From Ardenticatena maritima (lineage in GTDB: Bacteria; Chloroflexota; Anaerolineae; Ardenticatenales; Ardenticatenaceae), in the NCBI RefSeq assembly GCF_001306175.1, contig NZ_LGKN01000009.1:186001-250000 (forward strand): a DNA stretch of 64,000 bases, written 5' to 3'. Below the pieces are notes generated by a model. That model saw only the letters and a list, made by a program, of their open reading frames with translations, had not been told where the DNA came from and made no database searches. The position numbers and the translations under genes are program-made. Each line of letters starts with the position of its first letter. Within the stretch, counting starts at the first letter, position 1. Shown piece after piece: positions 4,782 through 18,057 of the stretch.

Positions 4782-6104
4782 CTACGCCACATGGCGCGTA
4801 TCAATTAACACTCGTGCGCGGCGACGAATCATCGCCCAGTCGTAGGTGCTGTGGTCGGTCACAATGACCACACAATCAGCGGCATCCAACGCCGCGTCCA
4901 GGTCGGGTTCACACGTCAGGTCAATGCCGTCGTACAACACGCGCGGCACGTGTGGGTCATGGTACATGACGTGCGCCCCCTTGGCTTGCAACAAATGGAT
5001 GATATCGAGAGCGGGAGATTCTCGCAAATCGCCCACGTCGCGCTTGTAGGCCACGCCAATGATGAGAATACGGCTTCCCCGCACCGGTTTGGCAACATCG
5101 TTCAACGCATCCTGCACCTTCTGCACCCAGTAGGCGGGCATTGAGGTGTTGATTTGCGTCGCCAGGTCAATGAAACGGGCGTGGTAGTTGAGCGTTTTCA
5201 GTTTCCAGGAAAGGTAGAGCGGGTCAATCGGCAAGCAGTGCCCGCCCAACCCGGGTCCGGGGGTGAATTTCATGAAGCCAAAGGGTTTTGTGGCGGCGGC
5301 TTCGATCACTTCCCACGCATCCAGCCCCAGTTTATCACACATCAGCAACACTTCATTGACCAGGGCGATGTTGACAGCGCGGAACGTGTTTTCGAGCAAT
5401 TTCACCATTTCGGCGGTTTCGGTGTTGCTGACCGGCACAATCGTCTGGATGGCTTGCTCATACAACGTGCGCCCCACATCCAGGCAATCGGGCGTCACCC
5501 CACCCATGACCTTGGGGGTGTTTTCGATCGTCCAATCTTTGCGCCCCGGGTCTATGCGTTCAGGCGAAAAACAGACAAAGACATCGCGCCCTACCTGAAG
5601 CGTGGGCACATGCGCCGTCAACGCCGGCACCACAACTTCGGTGGTTGTCCCTGGGTAGGTGGTGCTTTCGAGCACGACGAGCATCCCAGGGTGCAAATAG
5701 GTTGCCACCTGTTCCACAGCAGCGGTGATGTAGGAGATGTCGGGGTCGCCGGTTTTGCTGAGCGGGGTAGGAACGCAGATGATCGCCGCCTGCACATCGC
5801 GCAGCACATCAAAGCGCGTTGTCGCCTGAAAACCGCCCCTCTGGGGCATGGACGCATGCCCGCCAGCCGGCACAGGTTGGCGCAAAAGGGCGCGCAGGTG
5901 CTCGTGGGGGATATCCTCGACGTAGGAAACGCCCTGTTGCAACAGCGCAACCCGTTCTTCGTTGACGTCAATGCCAATCACCTCAAAGCCGGCGCGGGCA
6001 AACGCCAGCGCCAGCGGCAATCCCACATAGCCCAAACCAATCACGGCCAGCGTTGCATCGCGCTGACGAAAACGGTTCATCAATGCTTGTTTGGTCGTGT
6101 TCAT
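4782..6104 (-). CDS. UDP-N-acetylglucosamine/UDP-glucose 6-dehydrogenase (WbpA/WecC-like)
   Basis: A 440-residue nucleotide-sugar dehydrogenase that oxidises C6 of a UDP-hexose to the uronate with two NAD+. The N-terminal Rossmann motif GLGYVGLPLALAFARAGF, ICVPTPL, and the catalytic cysteine in GLGGHCLPIDP are all present, and GVAYKRDVGDLRESPAL marks the C-terminal domain. The GGHCLPIDPLYLSWK form and the length fit UDP-N-acetylhexosamine dehydrogenases (WbpA, WecC) somewhat better than UDP-glucose dehydrogenase, but the substrate stays open. The start overlaps the stop of the phosphatase gene by 4 bp (ATGA). With the epimerase at 698-1675 it suggests uronic-acid precursor synthesis for an exopolysaccharide. 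Confidence 0.9.
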   Translation of the reverse strand: MNTTKQALMNRFRQRDATLAVIGLGYVGLPLALAFARAGFEVIGIDVNEERVALLQQGVSYVEDIPHEHLRALLRQPVPAGGHASMPQRGGFQATTRFDVLRDVQAAIICVPTPLSKTGDPDISYITAAVEQVATYLHPGMLVVLESTTYPGTTTEVVVPALTAHVPTLQVGRDVFVCFSPERIDPGRKDWTIENTPKVMGGVTPDCLDVGRTLYEQAIQTIVPVSNTETAEMVKLLENTFRAVNIALVNEVLLMCDKLGLDAWEVIEAAATKPFGFMKFTPGPGLGGHCLPIDPLYLSWKLKTLNYHARFIDLATQINTSMPAYWVQKVQDALNDVAKPVRGSRILIIGVAYKRDVGDLRESPALDIIHLLQAKGAHVMYHDPHVPRVLYDGIDLTCEPDLDAALDAADCVVIVTDHSTYDWAMIRRRARVLIDTRHVA

Positions 6105-6571
6105 TGTGCATGCCCCTTTGCATGTTCAATGATGGCGGAAAGGCCGTTGCGGATAAACATGTCAATATCGCGTGCGGTTTCACGGTAGCGTTCAAGCGAC
6201 TGCCCCACGGGGTCGGCAATCTCCACGGGGAAGCCCGACATCTCACTCAGCATGAAGGTTTTGTCGCGCGCTTCGGCAAATTCGACGAGCAAGGCTTCTT
6301 TGTGCCCGCTTGTCATCGTCAGCACCAGGTCGGCGCGCGCCAGCATCTCAGCCGTCACCTCGCGCGAACGGTGTTGGCTGATATCCAGACCATACTCGCG
6401 CATCACCTGCACACTCTTATCGGTGGCGGGAATACCGTTGCGCGCCTGCGTCCCCGCCGATTCAACACGCCAATCGGCATAGCCGGCGTCGGCGAGGTGC
6501 TTGCGCAGCAAGGCTTCCGCCATGGGTGAACGGCATTGGTTCGCGGTACAAATCACCAAAATCGTCGGCAT
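6101..6571 (-). CDS. Low-molecular-weight protein-tyrosine phosphatase
   Basis: A 156-residue protein with the LMW-PTP/arsenate reductase fold. The catalytic P-loop CTANQCRS (C-X5-R) is at the N-terminus and the general-acid Asp is in ISDPVGQSLERY-like context near the C-terminus (EIADPVGQSLE). The sequence TANQCRSPMAEALLRKHL matches Wzb/Etp and bacterial LMW-PTPs rather than thioredoxin-coupled arsenate reductase, because the extra redox cysteines are not evident. Wzb-type enzymes dephosphorylate polysaccharide-export tyrosine kinases or sugar dehydrogenases, which fits its 4-bp overlap with a UDP-sugar dehydrogenase. No partner kinase is in the window. The start is the Met 1 bp after the upstream peptidase stop. 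Confidence 0.9.
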   Translation of the reverse strand: MPTILVICTANQCRSPMAEALLRKHLADAGYADWRVESAGTQARNGIPATDKSVQVMREYGLDISQHRSREVTAEMLARADLVLTMTSGHKEALLVEFAEARDKTFMLSEMSGFPVEIADPVGQSLERYRETARDIDMFIRNGLSAIIEHAKGHAQ

Positions 6572-6572
6572 C

Positions 6573-8744
6573 TTACCCTCCAGAAGCCGTAGCGGTTTCG
6601 TCAAAGAGACGCAACGCCGGATCGCCCAGCAACAAAAAGGTGTTGAGCACATCTTGGACGCCGGTTTGTACCACCGGCACGCCTTCACCTTCACTTGATT
6701 GCGGCACGGCGCTTTGCTGTGCCGCCAACAGAAGTTCGCCCAGGGTAGCATAGCGGCGTTCCGCCAAAAAGGTTGCCAATGGGTTGGAAAGGAATTGCTG
6801 GTCGCTCGGCAAGGTCAGGCTCGTAGGCGCAAGGGCGGCCACAATGCCGCCATCCGGTTGCCAGAGCAAGGTTTCCGTCAGGGATTCAACCTCAGGATGA
6901 ATGAAGAAGCCCGTGAGACAGGTGAAGTTGAGGAAGACGGGCAAGGTGGCGTTGCGCAATTGTTGCGCATCGTCCACGTCGAAAATGTGGTCACGCCCCC
7001 ATTGGGTGACGCTGCCATGCCCAAAGTAGGCGGTAATGAACGCGCCTTCGTTCAAGCGTTCGAGCAAGGGGGCGTCGGCATTGGGAGTGTCGGGCGGCGG
7101 CGTGTAGAGGTCGGTCTGGTAGGCGGTTTGTATCCGGTCGAGAAAGGCTTGCGCATCATTGGCGAAACTCGGCTCGCGCCCATCGGCAACAGCCAGAACA
7201 CGCGGCGTGGTTGCCGCCACATGTGTTTCCTCAAAGCGGATGGTCTTCTCCACAAGCGTGCGCACTTGTTCAGGCGTGCGCGCCGGAATACGGCCGACGG
7301 CAATATCAGGCGCGGGGTCGTCATCCACATTGGCAAAGGGTACGTCCGTGGCGGTTTCTCCCCCGTACACCGTCCAGGTGAGGAAAGTCGGCAGACGGTT
7401 TGCCTCTGGTGGCGCGATATAGCCGCGCATGTCATATGTCGCATCGCCGACCAACACCAGGAAACGCGGCGCAGGCGACCAATGGTCAACAGCGTAGCGC
7501 ACAAATTCGCGGATGGGTTCGGGTTCAGGCAAACCGTTGCCAAATTGGTCGTAGATGGCTTCAACCGGGACAGCCAACGGGGTGAGCCCCTGGGAACGGC
7601 GATGGTCGAGCAAGGGTTGGAGCGCATCGAGCAAATCCTGAGGTCCAACGGCCACGTAGTCGGCGCCGGTCAACGCGCGCAAGTCGGGTTGCACTGCCAG
7701 CGGTGTGATTCGCATGGGGGCGCGCGCCATTTCCAGAGTTGCCACCGCGTAGCGATGGTCGGCTTCCACGCGGAAGGTGAGGGTTTGCCCATCATGCTGC
7801 ACGCCTTCCAGGCGAGACGGCGGCGCGGTGCTCAGGTCGAGCACCAGCGGGGTTCCGTCAACGCCTTCAACTTGCACCACACCCGCCTGGGTTGGGGTGA
7901 AGAGCAGCGGCGCTTCATTCAGCACAAACCGACGCGGGTACGCCAGCATGATGGTGTTCACATAGACAATGTCGGCGATGACGTCAAGGTCGCCGGGCAA
8001 TTCCACGCGCACGCTGTTCTCACCAGTGCGCACCGTTCCCGCAGGAAGAGCGCCTCGGAGCGTGTAGGCACCCTTGCCGTCCCACGACGCTTCGGCCACA
8101 AGTGTATCGTTGATGAAGAGGCGCACATGATGGTCGGGCGACAAGGTGGGGGCGTCAGTCACCGCATGGAGTGTGAGTTCCGCCCAACCTTCAGCCTCCG
8201 GCACGACGGCGTCCGCCTGGAATGTGGTTTCAAGCGTGTTGGGAGCGGGCAAATACGCCCAAAACCAGTGGTCGCCTTCCTGGATTTCGGGTTCGTAGAG
8301 GGTGTTTTCTTCCAAAGAGAGCGTGTGCAGGTAGAAGGGCACCGACGCCCCGGCATCGGGAGCGGCATCCTGCGCGGGGAAGGTGAGAGGTGTGCCGTCG
8401 AACGTGAGCCGATAGACGTTTGCGGCGCTGTACCGGCTGGTTGATGGTTCTCCCCAGAAGTAGAGCCGTCCTTGTTCAAAAAGGGTCGGAATTTGCCCAT
8501 CGGGGCTTTGCACGACTGCGCCCTGCGCGCCGTCGGCTATCTCCACCACGTAGAGGCCTTCTTCGGCGAGGAACAGTTTCTGCGGGGTTTGTGTCACCAC
8601 GCCCGCAGAAGAGCCGGCAGATTCGGGCGCCGATGTGTTCGACACCGTATTCGTCTCGGTTGTTGAAGAATTGGCACGACAGGCAAGGCTGAACCAACTT
8701 GTCAACAAGACGATGAGCACAACAGAACGAACGTTTTTCAGCAT
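6573..8744 (-). CDS. Gingipain-like C25 cysteine peptidase, predicted lipoprotein
   Basis: A 723-residue secreted peptidase. The N-terminus has a lipoprotein signal with lipobox SLAC, so it is probably anchored at the outer face of the membrane. Residues from about 365 onward form a C25 (gingipain) domain: DYVAVGPQDLLDAL, LVLVGDATYDMRG, DIAVGRIPARTPEQVRTLVEK, the catalytic His in YFGHGSVTQWG (about residue 576) and the catalytic Cys in NFTCLTGFF (about 609). The N-terminal half is probably beta-rich. It follows a Thr/Pro-rich surface protein by 9 bp and precedes the phosphatase by 1 bp, so it belongs to the same operon as the PqqD-like protein and the larger C25 peptidase. The substrate is unknown; processing of an exported peptide or surface protein is inference. 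Confidence 0.85.
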   Translation of the reverse strand: MLKNVRSVVLIVLLTSWFSLACRANSSTTETNTVSNTSAPESAGSSAGVVTQTPQKLFLAEEGLYVVEIADGAQGAVVQSPDGQIPTLFEQGRLYFWGEPSTSRYSAANVYRLTFDGTPLTFPAQDAAPDAGASVPFYLHTLSLEENTLYEPEIQEGDHWFWAYLPAPNTLETTFQADAVVPEAEGWAELTLHAVTDAPTLSPDHHVRLFINDTLVAEASWDGKGAYTLRGALPAGTVRTGENSVRVELPGDLDVIADIVYVNTIMLAYPRRFVLNEAPLLFTPTQAGVVQVEGVDGTPLVLDLSTAPPSRLEGVQHDGQTLTFRVEADHRYAVATLEMARAPMRITPLAVQPDLRALTGADYVAVGPQDLLDALQPLLDHRRSQGLTPLAVPVEAIYDQFGNGLPEPEPIREFVRYAVDHWSPAPRFLVLVGDATYDMRGYIAPPEANRLPTFLTWTVYGGETATDVPFANVDDDPAPDIAVGRIPARTPEQVRTLVEKTIRFEETHVAATTPRVLAVADGREPSFANDAQAFLDRIQTAYQTDLYTPPPDTPNADAPLLERLNEGAFITAYFGHGSVTQWGRDHIFDVDDAQQLRNATLPVFLNFTCLTGFFIHPEVESLTETLLWQPDGGIVAALAPTSLTLPSDQQFLSNPLATFLAERRYATLGELLLAAQQSAVPQSSEGEGVPVVQTGVQDVLNTFLLLGDPALRLFDETATASGG

Positions 8745-8753
8745 AGATGTCTC

Positions 8754-9899
8754 TCACTCGCGTGGGTTGATGGAGCGTGCGACATATCGCCCAACAATGC
8801 CAAGCCCCAAAAGCGAAAAGACCAGTAGCGCGATACCGGCAAGGCGCAAGAAAGGCGTCCATGGGGACGAGGGGAGCGGGGGCGAAGCGCTGATAAGCGG
8901 ACGCGCCGAGGGCGCATCACCAGCAGGCGGCGCGTCCACCGCCGGCATCGCAATCACCGTTTCGCCTTCGTCCGTCACGGCGCTGACGAGCAAGGTGGGC
9001 GTTGGAATAGGCGCCGGGTAGGCGGCTTCCAGTTGCTCGGTGGGCGGCGCGGTCGGTGTCGGGGTGGGTGAAGCGTTGGGCGCAGTGGACGCCCTCGGCG
9101 ACGGCGTTGCGGTGGCGTCAACAGGCGCCCCAACCGCCCGCGAGGTTGGGCTTGGCACGGGTGTTCTGGTTTTGGTCGGCGTGCGGGTCGGCGTCGGCGT
9201 ATGGGTGGGCGTGCTCCCCGGCGGCGGTGTATTCGTGACGGTTGGCGACGGTGTGGATGTCGGTGTGCGCGTGGGGGTTGGCGTATGCGTCGGTGTACTG
9301 TTGGGCTGTGGCGTATTGGTCTTGGTTGGGGTTGGCGTGCGCGTTGGCGTGCGCGTCGGTGTACGCGTCGCTGTCGGTGAGGGTGTGTGGGTCGGCGTGG
9401 GTGTGGCGCTGGGTGTTGGTGTCGGTGTCGGGGTGGCGGTGGGCGGCGGCGTAGGGGTCGGCGTCGCGCTGGGTGCAGGGGTGGGGCTTGGTGTGGGCGT
9501 CGGGGCGGCGCCGGGAATGACGAGAACCGGCGGCGAGTGGTAGGTGGACTGGTTCGAGGCGTTGATATCCTCAAGCCAGTAGTAATAGACCTGGCCGATT
9601 TGGATATCCGTGTCAGTCCATGCGTAGTACGCGCCGGTTTGCCCATCCCCCTGCGCTGGAATGAACGGGCTGACGCGGGTGCTGTCATCGGGGAAAGCCG
9701 TGTCCGACGTCGTGCGGTGCACAAAAAAGCCCACGTTATCGAACTCGGTGGCGGTTTCCCACTCGACCAGCACACTGCCGCCCTGGTCGGTGGCGCGGAA
9801 ATACTGCAATGTGACCGCGCTCCACGTCTGCGCCACCAGCACAAAGCCCGCCAAGAGAATGAGCGCCGCACCTATGAAAAACTTGCCTGTTTGCCGCAC
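8754..9899 (-). CDS. Surface protein: signal peptide, fibronectin-like domain, Thr/Pro-rich stalk, C-terminal membrane helix
   Basis: About 381 residues of unassigned function. I start at GTG 9899: AAGGAG lies 9 nt upstream, and this leaves a clean signal peptide (hydrophobic [15 protein letters not shown]). The TTG at 9920 has no Shine-Dalgarno site. Residues about 27-125 resemble a fibronectin-III-like module ([32 protein letters not shown]). Then come about 150 residues of PTPTPTxTPT low complexity, likely glycosylated in an extracellular stalk, and a C-terminal hydrophobic helix ([21 protein letters not shown]) with a short basic tail. It sits 9 bp upstream of the lipoprotein C25 peptidase, and such beta modules commonly accompany gingipain domains. 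It could be an anchor or partner for the peptidases (inference). Confidence 0.75.
9040..9543 (-). repeat. Low-complexity Thr/Pro-codon repeat tract
   Basis: On the plus strand this reads as imperfect GTGGGxGTxGGCGTx-like units; on the minus strand they encode PTPT/RTPT repeats. It creates a spurious Val/Gly-rich plus-strand reading frame. Such tracts are prone to slippage and length variation. Confidence 0.8.
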
Positions 9900-9912
9900 G
9901 AATTGCGTCTCC

Positions 9913-10188
9913 TTATTCAAGCGTGATGAGATTGCGTTCCGCCAGCGATTGCAAAAATGCTATGGTATCTTGACGCGCCTGCTCAGGCGAAACGTTGAAC
10001 GTGCGCACCACATGTTCGATAATATCCTGCACGCTTTTGCGGCCATCAATCTGGTTCCAAATGAATGCGCCAACATGGTTGACCACGTTGACTTTCCCAC
10101 TGCGCGCATGCACGATCACGGCGTCTCCGTCGGCGTCGCGTGAAACGACGCCAGCCGCCACGGCGGGAACGCTTTCCAAAGAGAGCAT
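9913..10188 (-). CDS. PqqD family peptide-recognition (RRE) protein
   Basis: A 91-residue protein spanning the whole PqqD/RRE fold: [41 protein letters not shown], then the helical [13 protein letters not shown] and [15 protein letters not shown]. PqqD-type domains bind the leader of ribosomally made, modified peptides and hand it to the modifying enzyme. The start is set by AGGAGGAG 9-10 nt upstream of the ATG. The longer in-frame extension overlaps the intergenic region and lacks similarity. It follows the S26 peptidase gene by 37 bp and lies about 4 kb downstream of the precursor-like peptide, in the same orientation. No radical SAM enzyme, cyclase or transglutaminase-type protease accompanies it, which is unusual. 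Confidence 0.88.
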
Positions 10189-10225
10189 AGTGCCTTCTCC
10201 TCCTTCTGAATTGCGAACTGTATTG

Positions 10226-10723
10226 CTAGAGGCGAGCGACGTAAACGCACACCATTCCAAGCGCACGCCACCCTTTTTGAACGAGCCAATGCAAAGGGGC
10301 GGGGCGTTGCAATCGCGCACATTGTAGAGCAAAGTAGCCAACTTGCCCAAGCGCCCAATGCCCCCACCGCGCGCGCGGGGTGCGCCAATCACGATAGACG
10401 CCATTGCGCTCATAGCCCACCACACGCCCAATGAGGCGCGGGGGGCGGGGAAACGTATCAGCCGCCATCAGGGCGTCGCCTTTTGTGAGCATGCGCCCCT
10501 GACGCCAGCCCAGAAAGCGGTGCGTGAGCAGGTCATCGCCCGTATCCAGCACAACGACGTCGCCAAAGCGCACGGTGGCGGGTGTGGCCGGTTCCACACG
10601 CACACGGTCGCCCACGCGCAAGGCGGGGCGCATGCTCCCGCTCACCACCGTCAGCGTGACCACATGGCCGTGCTGGAGCGTTTCGGCAACGAGTGTGATG
10701 AGATCGCGGCTTGTCTGCATCAT
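10226..10723 (-). CDS. S24/S26-type signal-peptidase-like serine peptidase
   Basis: A 165-residue S26-like protein. The catalytic serine lies in the VSGSMRPAL box (Ser30), LLTHRFLGW provides the conserved His box (His68), and LTKGDALMAAD has the Lys/Gly-Asp box (Lys81). Unlike LepB it has no obvious N-terminal membrane anchor, and its length fits the small S24/S26 peptidases found beside PqqD genes in lasso-peptide-like clusters. The start overlaps the end of the large C25 gene by 4 bp, and the PqqD-like gene follows. A role in cleaving an exported or modified peptide is plausible but inferred; an ordinary accessory signal peptidase is the alternative. Confidence 0.82.
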   Translation of the reverse strand: MMQTSRDLITLVAETLQHGHVVTLTVVSGSMRPALRVGDRVRVEPATPATVRFGDVVVLDTGDDLLTHRFLGWRQGRMLTKGDALMAADTFPRPPRLIGRVVGYERNGVYRDWRTPRARWGHWALGQVGYFALQCARLQRPAPLHWLVQKGWRALGMVCVYVARL

Positions 10724-13700
10724 CGGACAATCAGCGGCGCGAATACGCGATACAGCACGTTGGTGATGAGCGTGGCTTCGGCGTATTTGGATGTATCACC
10801 GCGCGATTGGGCTCGCACAATCACCGTATCCGAGACCGTTGCGGGCATGAGAGGCACACTCACGGTCACATTGAGCGTCGTCGTGACAGCCGGCGCGAGC
10901 GTGATACTCATCGGCGCAACTGTTGTCGGCCAGGTATTGCCGCTTACCGAAAGGTCAAAGGTATCCGTGAAGTGCCCCGCATTCGTCAAAACGAGTGTAT
11001 ACGCCACATTTTGCCCACCGCCAGTTGTCATCTCGGCACTTGCCGGCGAAAGCGCCACATCAAAGCCTGTGGGAATCTGCAACGCCGGGTCGCCATAAAT
11101 CGTGAACGTGTCAATCAAATCGTAACTCCACCCACTGGCGTACAAGGCCAATTTGCCAACCAGCGCCGCCTGCCCCAGCGTCCATTCACCGTCGCGCCAC
11201 ATGGCGTCGAACATGGCTTCCTGCATGATGGCATGTCCGGTCGCCACGCCCAACCCCGTCGGCGAGAAGGTCGCCACCGCGCCGCCATTTGGGTTCTGAA
11301 TAAAGGTCTGCGCCAAACTCATCTTGCCGGGGTAGAAGTAGTAGCCATCCAGGCAGTCCATTGAAAGCACAATCGGCAGCCGAGGCCCGTTTTGGAGCGC
11401 CTCCGCCGTCTCGACATCCATCAGGTATTCATGCGCCCATCTGTCAACAGAGGCATGCCCTACATACGAAAGAAATTGTGTACCCGAAACAGTCAATGTG
11501 CGCGTCAAATCTTCAGTCAATGCGGCACATTGACCACTGGCGCAGAGACCTTGCGCTTTGTATTCATCAAGGTAAAAGCGGTCAACCGCATACGAGGGAT
11601 GTGTGGACGTAATGCGGGCAATGGCGCTTTCGCTAAACGCCACAAAATTGCCGGCGTCATCGTTATTGTCAGCCACGAAGGTGACGCGTTGCTGGTAGGG
11701 CTGCCAGCCAGCCTGTTCATACGCGATGGTCTTGCTCACAACCGCCCACGCCCCCACCGAATCGGAAACCACAATGCGCCCCACAAGCATATCGGGCAAA
11801 ATATCATCGCCGACAACGGCAACAAGGCGGTTAGCGCTATCCACCTCGCCCTGCCAGGGGTCTGCCCATGTCATGTTGGGCGGCAAGAAATTGGTGGGGT
11901 GAGGATAGGCGTCAAACCCCTGCCCGTTCCAGTGCCCATACCCAAAGAGCACAACATACGTGGGCGGCGGGGCTTGCCAGTTTTCGTAGGCATACGCCAG
12001 GAAATTGCGAATCGCCGCCGGTCCCCAACGCCCATCATTGAATTCATTGTAAAGGTCTTCGACATCCACCACCTTCGTGCGTAACCCCTGCCCCGCACGA
12101 TACGCCGCCAGCGCCTGCGCTTGCGTCATGAAAGCGCGGTGCGTAATGACAATGTAGTCTGCACCGTTGGTTGTGCTCTTCAAATCGGGCGGCTCGTAGT
12201 AGGAAACACGCAGCGGCTGTTTGTAGCCGGTGGGTCCTACGGCGGCAAAGCGTTGCGTCGGACCATGGTTGCGCTCAAACGCCACCTGATACCCATTGGA
12301 CGTTGGCGCTTGTTGGGTGCTGGTAAGCAAAATGGGGGTTGTCGGGACAGTGATATCAAACACGCGGATATCGCTCCCCGAAAAGCCATCTACATGGTAC
12401 TCCCAGGTGCCAACACCATTCCCATTGAAGAGCAACAGGTCGTTATTGGCTTGCAAGGCCTGGCGGTATGTCAGGACAATATCGTCAAAGTAAATCGTAT
12501 CCGCGCCGGTTGTCAGTTGCGTAAAAACAGCCTGCACACTATTGACGCCATCCACCAACACGCTGCCCGGAATCTGCCCCTGTGCAGTGCCGCGATTACG
12601 GAACATCCATGTCGTGCTTATCGTTGGCGACGCCCCATTGACGGTATACGCCGCGCGGCGATTGCCCACCGTCGAATAGCCAATCGCAGAAGCCGACAAC
12701 GTCGCCGAAAACGGCTCATCGGCAACGGCATGCAGCGTGAGCGTGTACGTGCGCGTCGCAACAGGTGTCCCAAAGGTGTTGATGGCGATTTTCTCGGCAA
12801 AGAATGTTTCTTGAGGCGTGGTATACCCACCGTCGGCAAAGTGCCACGACCAATAGACATTCGCGGCATCGAAAGTCGCCGTGGTTTCATGGCTGGTCAC
12901 CACTTGCGCGGAACCGGACGGCGCAGCGTCGCTCGTGGTCATACGCAAGCCGGGGGTATCATCCACAAGCAGCCAATACGCATTCGTCGAGGTGTAATGC
13001 TCCTGATTGGTGATATCGCCGACATAGCGTTGGCCGTAGAAAAGAATGGCATCGCCGGGGTCGAACTGCCCGTCGGCTTCCCCTTCCACCAGAATCGCCA
13101 CATCCTGGTCCTGGTGCACCATACGGAAGAAGTGCGGATCAACGCCCGTGGGGTCGAACCCCGCCGCCACCAGGTCGGCATAGGTCAGGCGGTAGAGACC
13201 GTCTTCATTCACTTCAATCTTGTAGCGTGGTCCCAACGAGGTTGTGGTTTGCGTCGCTGCCACAGGCGGTTGTGATGTGCGCCAGGCCTGTGCTTGTTCA
13301 GCGTTCAAGAGGCTGGCGGCCAGAATCTGGTCGAAAGGTGTATTTTGCACTGAGGCTGAGGATGTTTGCGCGGAAGAAACGCCGTCAAAGAGCACTTCCA
13401 CTTCCAGCGAGCGATACCAGCGCAAGGTGTTCGCACGGGCATCATACTGCACAGGCGCAATTTCCAGGCGCGCCACGCGCTGAGAGCGTACCCAGGCTTC
13501 ATCGCGCAACACCACAGGCAACGCCGGCCACAAGGGCTGCGCCGCCAGTATCGAGCGGGCAAGCGCGCCACGCGCCAACCGCCCTGGCGCCCATTCCGCT
13601 TCCTGGCGCGCCGGTTCGAGTGAGGGCAATGGCGGAGCGTCCAGGGCAATGGTTTCCACATCAGCCGCCCGCAGAATCACACGCGCGCTTCCTTCCGGCG

Positions 13701-13998
13701 GCAACCCGACGAGGTAAGCGAGGCGTGGCAAAGCCGGCATCCCCGGCTCATGCTTGATGTCCGCCCCATCCAGCATGACCTGCGTGAACGTTGACGCCCC
13801 TTCCTGCTGCAGCGTCAATTGCGGCTCCGGCACTTCCAGACGAACAATCAAGCGCGTTGCGTCAGGCGTCTGGACGTCAACAACAAGCGTCTGCGGGGGG
13901 CGCTGAAACGCCTCCGTCACAGGCAAAAACAAGGGTGCAAAGAGCATCAATCCCAGGAACCCAAGCGTGCAGAAAAAAAGCCAAAAACGAGTACGCAT
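10720..13998 (-). CDS. Large secreted gingipain-like C25 cysteine peptidase
   Basis: A 1092-residue protein beginning with a Sec signal (FFCTLGFLGLMLFAPLFLPVTEA). Residues about 40-240 form a propeptide/beta region, with beta-rich segments to about 600. The C25 domain follows: DYIVITHRAFMTQAQAL, YVVLFGYGHWNG, DMLVGRIVVSDS, catalytic His in YVGHASVDRW (about residue 848) and catalytic Cys in SMDCLDGYY (about 882). A C-terminal Ig-like domain ends in RVFAPLIVR, resembling a short aromatic-L/P-L-hydrophobic tail I recall from many Chloroflexota exoproteins, possibly a sorting signal. It is transcribed after the precursor-like peptide, with a terminator-like hairpin between them, and overlaps the S26 gene by 4 bp. 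Peptidase specificity is unknown. Confidence 0.88.
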   Translation of the reverse strand: MRTRFWLFFCTLGFLGLMLFAPLFLPVTEAFQRPPQTLVVDVQTPDATRLIVRLEVPEPQLTLQQEGASTFTQVMLDGADIKHEPGMPALPRLAYLVGLPPEGSARVILRAADVETIALDAPPLPSLEPARQEAEWAPGRLARGALARSILAAQPLWPALPVVLRDEAWVRSQRVARLEIAPVQYDARANTLRWYRSLEVEVLFDGVSSAQTSSASVQNTPFDQILAASLLNAEQAQAWRTSQPPVAATQTTTSLGPRYKIEVNEDGLYRLTYADLVAAGFDPTGVDPHFFRMVHQDQDVAILVEGEADGQFDPGDAILFYGQRYVGDITNQEHYTSTNAYWLLVDDTPGLRMTTSDAAPSGSAQVVTSHETTATFDAANVYWSWHFADGGYTTPQETFFAEKIAINTFGTPVATRTYTLTLHAVADEPFSATLSASAIGYSTVGNRRAAYTVNGASPTISTTWMFRNRGTAQGQIPGSVLVDGVNSVQAVFTQLTTGADTIYFDDIVLTYRQALQANNDLLLFNGNGVGTWEYHVDGFSGSDIRVFDITVPTTPILLTSTQQAPTSNGYQVAFERNHGPTQRFAAVGPTGYKQPLRVSYYEPPDLKSTTNGADYIVITHRAFMTQAQALAAYRAGQGLRTKVVDVEDLYNEFNDGRWGPAAIRNFLAYAYENWQAPPPTYVVLFGYGHWNGQGFDAYPHPTNFLPPNMTWADPWQGEVDSANRLVAVVGDDILPDMLVGRIVVSDSVGAWAVVSKTIAYEQAGWQPYQQRVTFVADNNDDAGNFVAFSESAIARITSTHPSYAVDRFYLDEYKAQGLCASGQCAALTEDLTRTLTVSGTQFLSYVGHASVDRWAHEYLMDVETAEALQNGPRLPIVLSMDCLDGYYFYPGKMSLAQTFIQNPNGGAVATFSPTGLGVATGHAIMQEAMFDAMWRDGEWTLGQAALVGKLALYASGWSYDLIDTFTIYGDPALQIPTGFDVALSPASAEMTTGGGQNVAYTLVLTNAGHFTDTFDLSVSGNTWPTTVAPMSITLAPAVTTTLNVTVSVPLMPATVSDTVIVRAQSRGDTSKYAEATLITNVLYRVFAPLIVR

Positions 13999-14053: not shown

Positions 14054-14092
14054 CGGGGAAAAAGAAATGCTTCAGGGGTTTCCTGAAGCATT
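14054..14092 (-). terminator. Hairpin terminator/attenuator downstream of the precursor-like gene
   Basis: Perfect 11-bp arms AATGCTTCAGG and CCTGAAGCATT (14066-14076 and 14082-14092) enclose a 5-nt loop. Reading leftward on the minus strand the hairpin is followed by TTCTTTTTC. It lies 26 bp after the peptide stop and before the C25 gene, so it should raise the ratio of peptide mRNA over the downstream genes. Confidence 0.8.
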
Positions 14093-14118: not shown

Positions 14119-14265
14119 TTATTCACCCAAGCCAAACAAGTCCAATTCATCATCGGGTTTGCTGATAGGTGAACCAGCGCGCGTCGTCAGTTCCAATTCC
14201 TCGATAATTTGCGGGGGCTCGTAGGGGCGGCGTTCCTGCTGGCTCATTCTTTCATTGTGCGACAT
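14119..14265 (-). CDS. Short peptide resembling a RiPP (lasso-like) precursor
   Basis: A 48-residue peptide started at the ATG preceded by GAAGGAGGAGCAT. An upstream ATG at 14310 is rejected because the predicted -10 box ends only 6 bp before it. Residues 14-20 read PYEPPQI, matching the Y-x-x-P-x-(L/I) leader motif that PqqD-like RREs bind in lasso peptides. Thr27-Thr28-Arg29 is followed by Ala-Gly-Ser-Pro. If cleavage follows Arg29, Thr28 is at -2 as in lasso leaders, and Asp38 and Asp39 are core positions 9 and 10. The 19-residue core is acidic and lacks Cys. It sits between an ABC exporter and C25/S26/PqqD genes. The family assignment is inference; no lasso cyclase is present. Confidence 0.7.
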   Translation of the reverse strand: MSHNERMSQQERRPYEPPQIIEELELTTRAGSPISKPDDELDLFGLGE

Positions 14266-14315
14266 ATGCTCCTCCTTCAGGGACAAAAGGGGTTTACTGG
14301 ATAAGGACATTGCTT

Positions 14316-14344
14316 AGAATACACTATTACCACATAAAAGTCAA
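14316..14344 (-). promoter_or_regulatory. Sigma-70-type promoter of the precursor-like peptide gene
   Basis: On the minus strand TTGACT (14344-14339) is separated by exactly 17 nt from TATTCT (14321-14316). The predicted transcript starts near 14309, about 44 nt before the peptide start codon. It lies in an unusually AT-rich gap after the exporter genes, giving the peptide its own promoter. Confidence 0.7.
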
Positions 14345-14413: not shown

Positions 14414-16240
14414 TTATCCATCTTCTGCTTGCTCAAAGCGCTCACGGGCTTCTTCCACATATTCGAGACTCTGATGACGGAAGTAGGTGTTGTACAACTC
14501 AGCATAATGCCCACCTTGTGCCAGAAGCGCCTCATGGGTCCCTTCTTCGATAATCCGCCCTTTCTGCAAAACGATAATGCGGTCAGCGGCTTTGATCGTT
14601 GAGAGACGATGGGCAATAACGATAGCCGTTGTACGCGCCAACACAAGGTCCAACGCCTGCTGAATCTGCCACTCCGTGAAGGGGTCCACGCTCGCAGTGG
14701 CTTCATCCAAAATGAAAATGGCGGGGCGCTGAATGAGCACACGCATGAGCGCAACCAACTGGCGCTGCCCCATCGAGAGACGGCTTCCCCGTTCCCCAAC
14801 TTCGGTCTGCAAGCCGTTCGGCAAGGTTTCCAACCATTCCCCGTTCCCAATGCGGTGCGCCATTTCCAGAATTTCGTCATCTGTGGCTTCGGGGCGCGCG
14901 TACCGGATATTGTCAGCCACTGTTCCACTAAACAGAAAAGGCACTTGCGAGACAATCCCCAATTGGCGACGGTACGCGTGCAAATCAAGGGTGCGAATAT
15001 CCATGCCGTCAATGAGGATACGCCCCCCCTGGAATTCATAAAAACGCGCCACCAGTTTCGCAATCGAAGATTTGCCCGCGCCGGTATGCCCAACAAGCGC
15101 CACCGTTTCCCCAGGGCGGATATGCAAATTGAAGTGTTCCAGCACCGTCTCTTTTTCGGAATAGCGGAAGGTAACATCTTCCAGGCGAATGTCGCCTTTG
15201 AGCGGCGGGACGGGGCGGTTGTCGGTCTGAATGACGGCCGGCTCGGCTTCGATGAGCGAGAAAATGCGTTCGGCGGCGGACAACCCCGCTTGCACCTGCG
15301 CCGCAAACGCCGAAATGTTCATCACCGGAAACCAGAAATAATCAAGGCTTGTGATGAACAGATACCACGCTCCCGCCGTAATGACACCCGCCGCAACAGA
15401 CATCCCCCCGGTGTACACCAGCAACGCCGTTCCAACACCCCCCAACGCATTCATCACGGGAAAAACCGACGCCAGCACAAAACCGCGCTTCACATTGACG
15501 CGGTACGACTGCTGGTTGGCGCGTTGAAACTCCTCGTAAATGGCGCGTTCCTGGCGAAAATTCTTCGCGACGGCAATGCCGCTAATCGTTTCCTTGATTG
15601 TTGCGTTGACGTTGGCGATGGCGCGCATCCCGGAACGTGTGACCCGCCGCGCCAGCCCGCGCAACCCCGTGGAAACGAGAAAGAGCACAGGCATAAAACC
15701 GAATAAAACCAGCGCCAACCGCCAGTTGATGAAGACGAGAATCGAACCCAGGATGAGCGCCTGCAAGACCTGCGCCAACACATCCGTGATGAGCACCGCC
15801 ACTTCGCCAAAGTCTTTGCTGTCGGAGGTAATGCGCGACACGACGCGCCCCGTTGAATACCGATCGTAGAACGAAAGGTCGTGGTTGAGGACGGCGCGCA
15901 TGGCGTCGGTGCGTAGTTGCAACACCGCATCGCCCACCACTTGTGTCACCAGGCGGCGGCGCGCCCAGTTGACGCCCCAATTCAGGAAACCCGCCACCGT
16001 CACCGCCATGCCCAGCACCAGAACAATCGCCGAAGTATCGCCCCCTTCCAGCACGCGAATACCACGCGAAATCAGCACGGGCACCGCCGCGCTGACAAGC
16101 GACAAGAAGGCAACCAAGACCGCCACCGTCACCACTTTGCGCACATGCGGGGCCAGATAGCGGCGAATGCCTGCAATCAATTCGCGGTCGCTATATTGTC
16201 GGTCGTATGATTCAATATCCAGGCTGGCAAAAAATCCCAT
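14414..16240 (-). CDS. ABC exporter half-transporter (BmrD/YheH-like subunit)
   Basis: A 608-residue membrane-ATPase fusion: an N-terminal six-helix exporter domain (residues about 30-320), then a nucleotide-binding domain. Walker A is GHTGAGKSS, Walker B plus catalytic Glu is FILDEATASVD, and the signature is LSMGQ rather than LSGGQ. The H-loop is IVIAHRLSTIK. A degenerate signature with an intact catalytic Glu is what the BmrD-type half of a heterodimeric exporter shows. Its partner ends 38 bp upstream. It lies 148 bp ahead of the precursor-like peptide, so a role in exporting the mature peptide is plausible (inference); multidrug or lipid export are alternatives. The start has GAGGGATGT upstream. 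Confidence 0.9.
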   Translation of the reverse strand: MGFFASLDIESYDRQYSDRELIAGIRRYLAPHVRKVVTVAVLVAFLSLVSAAVPVLISRGIRVLEGGDTSAIVLVLGMAVTVAGFLNWGVNWARRRLVTQVVGDAVLQLRTDAMRAVLNHDLSFYDRYSTGRVVSRITSDSKDFGEVAVLITDVLAQVLQALILGSILVFINWRLALVLFGFMPVLFLVSTGLRGLARRVTRSGMRAIANVNATIKETISGIAVAKNFRQERAIYEEFQRANQQSYRVNVKRGFVLASVFPVMNALGGVGTALLVYTGGMSVAAGVITAGAWYLFITSLDYFWFPVMNISAFAAQVQAGLSAAERIFSLIEAEPAVIQTDNRPVPPLKGDIRLEDVTFRYSEKETVLEHFNLHIRPGETVALVGHTGAGKSSIAKLVARFYEFQGGRILIDGMDIRTLDLHAYRRQLGIVSQVPFLFSGTVADNIRYARPEATDDEILEMAHRIGNGEWLETLPNGLQTEVGERGSRLSMGQRQLVALMRVLIQRPAIFILDEATASVDPFTEWQIQQALDLVLARTTAIVIAHRLSTIKAADRIIVLQKGRIIEEGTHEALLAQGGHYAELYNTYFRHQSLEYVEEARERFEQAEDG

Positions 16241-16278: not shown

Positions 16279-18057
16279 TTATTCGTCACGCGCAAAAATG
16301 CGCCGATACGCTTCCGACGTCCGCAAGAGTTCTTCGTGCGTGCCGATGGCGCTGATTTCCCCTTTACGCAAGACGACAATCAAATCCGCCCATCGAATTT
16401 GCGAAAGGCGGTGCGTGATGAGAATCGTGGTACGCCCTTGCGACGCCGCGTAAATGGCGCGCTGAATTTTGTCCTCGGTGGCGCTGTCAATCGCGCTGGT
16501 CGAATCGTCCAGAATGAGAATGGCGGGATTGGTCAAAAAGGCGCGCGCCAATGCCAAACGTTGCCGTTGTCCCCCCGACAACGTCACACCGCGCTCGCCA
16601 ATCACCGTGTCGTAGCCATCCTTGAACTGCATGATAAACTCATGTGCCTGCGCGGCTTTGGCCGCGGCGATGATTTCTTCCATCGTCGCGTCGGGCTTGC
16701 CAAAGGCAATGTTTTCGCGAATGGTGCGCGAGAAGAGGAAGATATCCTGCTCAATCATCGAAATCTGGCTGCGCAGGGCTTCCAGATTCCAATCGCGCAC
16801 GTTGATACCATCCACCAGCACATCGCCCTGCGTCGCGTCGTAAATGCGGTTGATGAGTTTGACCAGCGTCGTTTTTCCCGCCCCCGTTTGCCCCACAATC
16901 GCTACCGTCTGCCCAGGCTGGACATGGAAGGTAATATCGCGCAAAACCGGCGCCTGGTGTTCGTCATACTGAAACCAGACATGCCGAAACTCAATCTCGC
17001 CGCGCATCTTGCCGGCGTAGCCATCCACGTTTTCGTCCAGATTGGTTTCGCGCGTGATGAGTTCCAAAATGCGGCGCGCCGCCGAATAGCCCGTCGAGGC
17101 TTGCGAATAGGCGAAGAGCGAAACGAAGGTGGGGAAGCCGAACAGGTTGAGCAACCCGACATACGTCACAATATCGCCAATCGCCAGCGCCCCCGCACGG
17201 TAGAGCCAGACCGCGTGAAAAAAGCCCAGCCCTTGCGCCAACCCCAACAGCAGCAAAGGCGTAAACCGCGCTTCAATCTCCCCCTGGCGCACGTAGGCAT
17301 CGCGAAACCGGCGCGCCAGCGCTTCCAGCCGCGACAATTCGGCTTCTTCCTGTGCGGTCCCCTTCACCGTCTCAATCCCATCGAGCGCTTCCGCCAGCCG
17401 CGCGTTGAGCGCCCCAAACGCCTCGCGCACCTCTGTGGTGACGGGTTGCAACTGGCGCAGGTAGCGCACCACGGCGATGAAGTAGGCGACGATAAAGCCC
17501 AGCGGGACCAACACGAGGCTGGGATGATACCGTGGCGCAACCAGCACAGGCATAAACAGGAAGTTCGCGGAACCGAGAATGAGATTGAAGCCCGGGTTGA
17601 ACATGAGGTTGATTTCGCGCACGTCGTTGGTGGCGCGCGCCATCGTGTCGCCCACGGGCTGCAAGTTGTGGAACGTCATGCTCTTGCCCAGCAGGCTCAC
17701 ATACAACTCGTTGCGAATATCGCGCTCCAACCGCTGCCCAATCAACTCAGCGCCAAAATTGCGCCCCAACTGCAAGATAGCGCGAATGCCCTGCGTGCTG
17801 ACCAGCAAGACGCCCGTCTGCAAGAGCAACGCTTTGGGTTCAGCACCGCTCAAAATCCCATTGAAGGCACGCCCCACCAGCACGGGAACCGCCGCCGCCA
17901 GGGCGGCGTTCCCAAATGCGCCAATCATCGCCATCAAAATAAACACCCAGTGGCGGCGAGCATGTGAAAAAAGCCAACGCGCGGGCGACCGTTTGTCGGT
18001 CTCATAGGGCGTTGGAATATTGAATTCAGAAGCGTGTGAAAGCGTCGCGGTCGTCAT
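16279..18057 (-). CDS. ABC exporter half-transporter (BmrC/YheI-like subunit)
   Basis: A 592-residue transmembrane-ATPase fusion. Six membrane helices occupy residues about 30-330; the ATPase domain has Walker [10 protein letters not shown], signature [14 protein letters not shown] and Walker [12 protein letters not shown]. The catalytic Glu after Walker B is Asp here, as in BmrC, LmrC and TM287, so this subunit contributes the inactive Walker site and a good signature. No peptidase-C39 domain is present, so leader removal must be done by another enzyme. The start has GAGGAGAACGG upstream. It is the first gene of the exporter-peptide-peptidase run; pgmB ends 58 bp upstream in the same direction. 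Confidence 0.9.

Follow-up and report, generated by a model that had tools for sequence, protein, structure and literature searches.

Linear polyphosphorylated peptides (LPPs; LppA/LppB/LppS/LppK/LppD/LppN) were described from Bacillota in May 2026, and their loci bring together an RRE, an SpI-type leader peptidase, an MsbA-like exporter and polysaccharide genes (PMC13381572). Popov and colleagues reported that the RRE, LppB, binds Y-16/P-13 of the precursor LppA and presents the end of the leader to LppS, an SpI-like serine peptidase, while an HprK-like kinase acts on Ser3 of LppA; LPPs were stated to be restricted to Bacillota (PMC13381572). Not until that month did leader peptidases of the SpI type appear in the RiPP literature.

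Here, a locus of Ardenticatena maritima (Chloroflexota, class Anaerolineae) is described from a stretch of 64,000 nucleotides, called the window below, in which all features named lie on the minus strand. The locus holds a leader-core precursor (YxxP), an RRE, an anchorless SpI-type protease, exporters and secreted C25 peptidases. The 48-aa peptide is likely to be an RRE-guided, RiPP-like precursor of LPP type, linear, processed by the RRE and the SpI-like enzyme and coupled to the C25 peptidases. The signal-peptidase-like enzyme probably trims it intracellularly, after which the peptide would reach the surface in linear form; no macrocycle is predicted. A preliminary description had matched the peptide to lasso geometry and overlooked the SpI-like and RRE/PqqD genes, which start about 3.4 kb downstream of the precursor gene.

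The precursor gene and its family

The 48-aa ORF (MSHNERMSQQERRPYEPPQIIEELELTTRAGSPISKPDDELDLFGLGE; 14119-14265) is a genuine gene, since it comes with a promoter, a ribosome site and a terminator, shows a dN/dS near 0.15 in comparison with a congener and has over 60 distinct relatives. The promoter is sigma70-like (TTGACT-17-TATTCT, 14316-14344), with a counterpart ahead of the congener's gene, and is followed by the Shine-Dalgarno sequence AAGGAGG (14271-14277); an intrinsic terminator-like hairpin with an 11-bp stem (14066-14092) lies 3' of the gene, ahead of the next one. The same-genus orthologue is 81% identical (NG86 dN 0.19 vs dS 1.28) and is found in the same synteny, with the ABC transporter gene on one side and the C25 gene on the other, as in the host. 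A chance ORF was also considered and is excluded by the orthologue dN/dS and the 66 distinct relatives.

The A. maritima genome carries a single copy, and several genomes of the class carry three to six copies each. Precursor matches at E<=0.1 occur in 46 of the 298 genomes of the host's class, some of the weak ones being unconfirmed by a profile; 34 genomes are profile-confirmed. When 84,980 prokaryotic species were scanned with a consensus stretch from a closer precursor set, an alignment of 27 precursors being too divergent, 25 loci were returned, all in Chloroflexota records and mostly in Anaerolineae. Every relative found belongs to Anaerolineae/Chloroflexota, a search for viral relatives gave none, and the family is absent from the curated libraries tried. 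The precursor is a member of a previously unnamed family linked to gingipain-type proteases.

Numerous copies of the precursor gene have no RRE in their vicinity. Forty-six precursor loci were fetched, and an RRE was present within 9 kb at 18 of them, which is an upper estimate because the loci were partly picked for RRE proximity. These 18 RRE-linked loci contain genes for C25a (13), the SpI-like peptidase (10), C25b (9) and an HprK-like kinase (8), and at three (L048, L068 and L077) all four accompany the RRE. Downstream of the host precursor the genes run C25a, SpI-like peptidase, RRE, fn3/PT-rich protein and C25b, an arrangement that is repeated in other families (L039, L054, L074, L075 and L068), with the HprK-like gene added in L048, L068 and L077.

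A role for the precursor as a C-terminal sorting tag was considered and rejected: one in-frame fusion was found, in L049, and further candidates (G037, G070, G136 and G239) are profile-unconfirmed. The L049 product (9943-12810, minus strand) is a 955-aa secreted repeat protein with a TM segment and basic tail, followed in frame by a complete AGSP-type precursor, which has a free-standing sister copy at 8651-8824. Orphan precursors in L045, L050, L053, L056 and L107 adjoin or converge on genes for secreted proteins, which carry LTD and PLD-like domains where scanned.

Leader recognition, the cut site and the lasso reading

The family consensus is [KR]xPYxxPx[IV][IV]xExx[LI]E[TV][RQ]AGSP[LI]...DPxDLFG. 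The leader is of the RRE (PqqD) type, YxxPx[I/V][I/V], with YxxP invariant, and in the host peptide it is predicted to span M1-A30 (14176-14265), with the RRE motif Y15xxP18xI20I21 and, in the preferred register, a cut site at T28-R29-A30. The predicted core is GSPISKPDDELDLFGLGE plus the stop codon (14119-14175), beginning at Ala30 in the alternative register. The preliminary description was right to see a precursor made up of an RRE-type leader and a core, a YxxPxL-type spacing (Y15-x-x-P18-x-I20) and a core start near Ala-Gly-Ser-Pro.

The proposed leader-binding chaperone is a discrete RRE of the PqqD family (9913-10188; 67.6 bits), the closest solved chains of which are leader-binding lasso and LPP RREs. 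It keeps Asn and Asp/Phe at the positions aligned to N33 and D70/F74 of LppB, and in the RRE tree it clusters with other AGSP-linked RREs, deeper branches being weakly supported. In L080 (9168-11224), from a genome that has AGSP precursors, an RRE adjoins an RRE-fused radical SAM/SPASM protein.

The proposed leader peptidase is an SpI-like soluble serine peptidase of SEC11/SipW type (10226-10723). Ser29/His67/Asp82 and Asp88 are invariant across 11 homologues, the invariant motifs being S-M-x-P, H-R and G-D, plus one more D; SEC11A is the best profile match, and the predicted structure (pLDDT 88.9) has a fold that matches S24/S26 proteins. The protein has no N-terminal TM anchor, and in natural fusions (L055 and L077) the SpI-like domain precedes the first membrane helix and is therefore cytosolic.

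Ala lies exactly 15 residues after the leader Tyr in all 66 distinct precursors, and Ser/Thr stands two residues past it in 64 of them. Cores are variable in length, and this fixed Tyr-to-Ala distance against variable cores in 66 natural precursors offers a ready test of a cut site set by the RRE. A cut after Ala would put T/V/I/A/S at -3 in 64/66 and Ala at -1 in 64/66, and the host T-R-A (generally [TVI]-x-A) complies with the -3/-1 rule of signal peptidases; in the host it would give Y(-16)/P(-13)/I(-11)/I(-10), the same numbering as Y-16/P-13/V-11/L-10 of LppA. The site is ambiguous by one residue, as a cut before Ala30 would turn the serine into Ser3, the numbering that it has in LPP and Bsf; these kinase precedents together with paeninodin spacing favour R29|A30. 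On these patterns, a cut after Ala30 appears about twice as probable as one before it.

The lasso assignment had been built on the positions of Asp and Thr, and a recount agrees with its arithmetic: with Arg29 as leader end, Thr28 takes position -2 and Asp38/Asp39 become core residues 9/10, and with Ala30 the two acids move to 8/9. The absence of a lasso cyclase from the window was likewise borne out. The orphan B2 protease and asparagine-synthetase-like cyclase that might have been encoded elsewhere did not materialise: PF13471 was absent from the 98.6%-complete genome, in a search that does recover a B2 gene next to a PqqD gene in G113, a genome from the same family, and the sole asparagine-synthetase-like protein (contig C6), nearest to lasso cyclases by NCBIfam and far under the cut-off, has HGDLAS where an active hydroxyamidotransferase relative has SGGLDS. 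An acid at core positions 7-9 occurs in 30 of the 66 relatives against 32.2 expected in one register, and in 39 against 32.4 (P=0.06) in the other. T/V/I/A does stand two residues before Ala in the relatives, a position that counts as -2 only with a cut before Ala. The lasso reading fails because B2 is missing, the SGGxDS motif is lost and the acid is no commoner than chance; the operon moreover has a peptidase of SpI type. Maturation by a trans-encoded B2 and cyclase could draw on the RRE and YxxP leader, on Asp38 at core 8 or 9, on lasso clusters elsewhere in the host's class and on the Ile/Val(-2)-R(-1) with Ser3 of Bsf lasso precursors (PMC10368454), but PF13471 is near none of the 18 RRE-linked loci and the RRE stands in a clade apart from the B2-linked lasso RREs of the same class, so that this origin is highly improbable.

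Modification by a tailoring enzyme encoded in trans, radical SAM or other, is also improbable: relatives in G186/G218 adjoin PapB/QhpD-like radical SAM enzymes, but the conserved operon contains no such enzyme and Cys is found in 0/66 cores. A linear core, released by the RRE and SpI-like peptidase, is the preferred reading. AGSP precursors with Cys-free acidic/aromatic cores adjoin PapB/QhpD-like radical SAM/SPASM enzymes in L102 (665-5349) and L104 (502-5424), although these enzymes are known for cross-links that involve Cys.

Secreted C25 peptidases and a proposed pathway

Between the precursor and the polysaccharide genes, the operon encodes two secreted peptidases of the gingipain/PorU family, both with the His/Cys dyad kept: C25a (10720-13998), which has a C25 propeptide, and C25b (6573-8744), which has a lipoprotein-type N-terminus. 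A secreted fn3-like, PT-rich protein with a C-terminal TM helix (8754-9920) is conserved in the operon. A PT-rich fn3-like TM protein of the same build is encoded on contig C6 of the host (L006, 7403-12197), together with BtrH/DarH-like, LCP and catalytically degenerate asparagine-synthetase-like proteins.

Among solved structures, C25a and C25b both match PorU best, a protein for which a sortase role has been proposed in P. gingivalis (PMC4560394). This match, and the polysaccharide genes next door, would suit sortase-like transpeptidases that use either the fn3/PT protein or surface polysaccharide as acceptor for the released core. However, the conserved Arg of PorU at Cys+32 is replaced by Gly and Ser in C25a and C25b, and the link between peptide and C25 is genetic only; such a role is rather unlikely. 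Lacking the Arg proposed to mark sortases, the two enzymes are by sequence likelier to perform plain proteolysis than transpeptidation.

The C25 peptidases might instead cut after Arg29 outside the cell in the manner of Arg-gingipain, leaving the RRE and SpI-like enzyme to another substrate. Arg precedes Ala in 47/66 precursors, and C25 tracks the precursor (32/34 profile-confirmed genomes vs 154/264, P=1.7e-5, with kinship of the genomes uncorrected and C25 common in Anaerolineae). On the other hand, Arg is replaced by Gln/His and others in 19/66, the precursor has no signal peptide, and the invariant spacing from YxxP to Ala points to a cytosolic cut presented by the RRE, which makes this arrangement quite unlikely. 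In the literature, no role for C25 peptidases in Anaerolineae was found, and searches on C25 with PqqD, gingipain/C25 with Chloroflexi and lasso/PqqD with Chloroflexi returned nothing that describes the operon.

Upstream of the precursor lie two MsbA-like ABC exporters (14414-16240 and 16279-18057), which are syntenic in the congener and adjoin the precursor only in the genus. On the other side, the polysaccharide-locus neighbours are a low-molecular-weight phosphotyrosine phosphatase (6101-6751, its start probably further in) and a nucleotide-sugar dehydrogenase (4782-6104). No HprK-like kinase is encoded in cis; one with an intact P-loop (GPSGTGKT) is found in trans on contig C4 (217.8 kb), and eight relatives have it in cis (L046, L048, L051, L068, L069, L071, L076 and L077). 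An NTP transferase is likewise absent in cis and present only in trans, in a glycan locus at C4:115.3 kb. Another C4 cluster (L136, 8427-11000), with an fn3-like protein, an HprK-like kinase, a secreted protein and no RRE nearby, is possibly a displaced part of the peptide system.

In the preferred model of intracellular leader removal, the peptide would be made from its own promoter, and the RRE would bind YEPPQII as an added beta strand and present T-R-A|G-S-P for leader removal by the cytosolic SEC11-like peptidase. Optionally, the HprK-like kinase, in trans here, may phosphorylate Ser32 before cleavage. The linear core would then be exported, possibly, judging only by position, by the adjacent MsbA-like pair. 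In the weakest step, the C25 peptidases and the anchored fn3/PT protein may trim, attach or sense the core outside the cell, an extracellular role for C25 that we infer from position only.

The logic of an RRE with a cytosolic SEC11-like peptidase and a kinase is now found in a phylum other than Bacillota, with a precursor family new to the curated libraries tried and a link to secreted C25 peptidases. Tentatively, Chloroflexota may have a class of linear peptides, processed by an RRE and an SpI-like enzyme, for which secreted gingipain-type C25 peptidases form a dedicated second, extracellular stage, for trimming or for transpeptidation onto a surface fn3/PT protein or polysaccharide, and in which several scattered precursors share a single processing locus.

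Comparison with known systems

SodX is an SpI-like enzyme that removes a leader without Sec export. The SpI-like protein of one relative weakly matches this NiSOD maturation protease (TIGR02754), which differs in its substrate. The SynChlorMet (Scm) cassette supplies the best NCBIfam matches, ScmD-like for the PqqD protein and ScmC-like for the kinase, both below cut-offs, but the host operon has no ScmE/ScmF radical SAM gene next to the RRE; literature searches on SynChlorMet gave unrelated papers only. With PorU and the gingipains of the T9SS, the locus shares the catalytic domain with its His/Cys dyad and, in C25a, the propeptide, whereas the sortase Arg is missing and the C25 genes are in an operon with an RRE and an SpI-like peptidase.

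Phosphorylated lasso peptides of the Bsf/paeninodin type (PMC10368454) have in common with the locus an RRE, a YxxPxL leader, Ile/Val/Thr near the cut, a Ser3-like serine and, in relatives of the host locus, an HprK-like kinase. They differ in that the host has neither B2 nor a functional cyclase and the position of the core acid is not fixed.

The LPP loci share a discrete RRE next to a soluble SpI of SEC11/SipW (archaeal/SipW) type, the leader Y(-16)xxP(-13)x[V/I](-11)[L/I](-10), provided that the cut follows Ala30, an MsbA-like exporter, a polysaccharide-locus setting without a cyclase and, in several relatives of the host locus, an HprK-like kinase in cis. Unlike them, the locus lies in Chloroflexota, has its kinase and NTP transferase outside the cluster, ends its leader in [TV]-[RQH]-A-G-S instead of FETxxS, and adds two C25 peptidases and the fn3/PT protein. 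Its RRE scores nearer to PbaB1 and TbiB1 than to LppB, its placement relative to LppB having low support in a tree that contained one partial LppB sequence. While formal membership fails on the in-cis kinase, the NTP transferase and FETxxS, the locus would, by analogy, work like an LPP locus.
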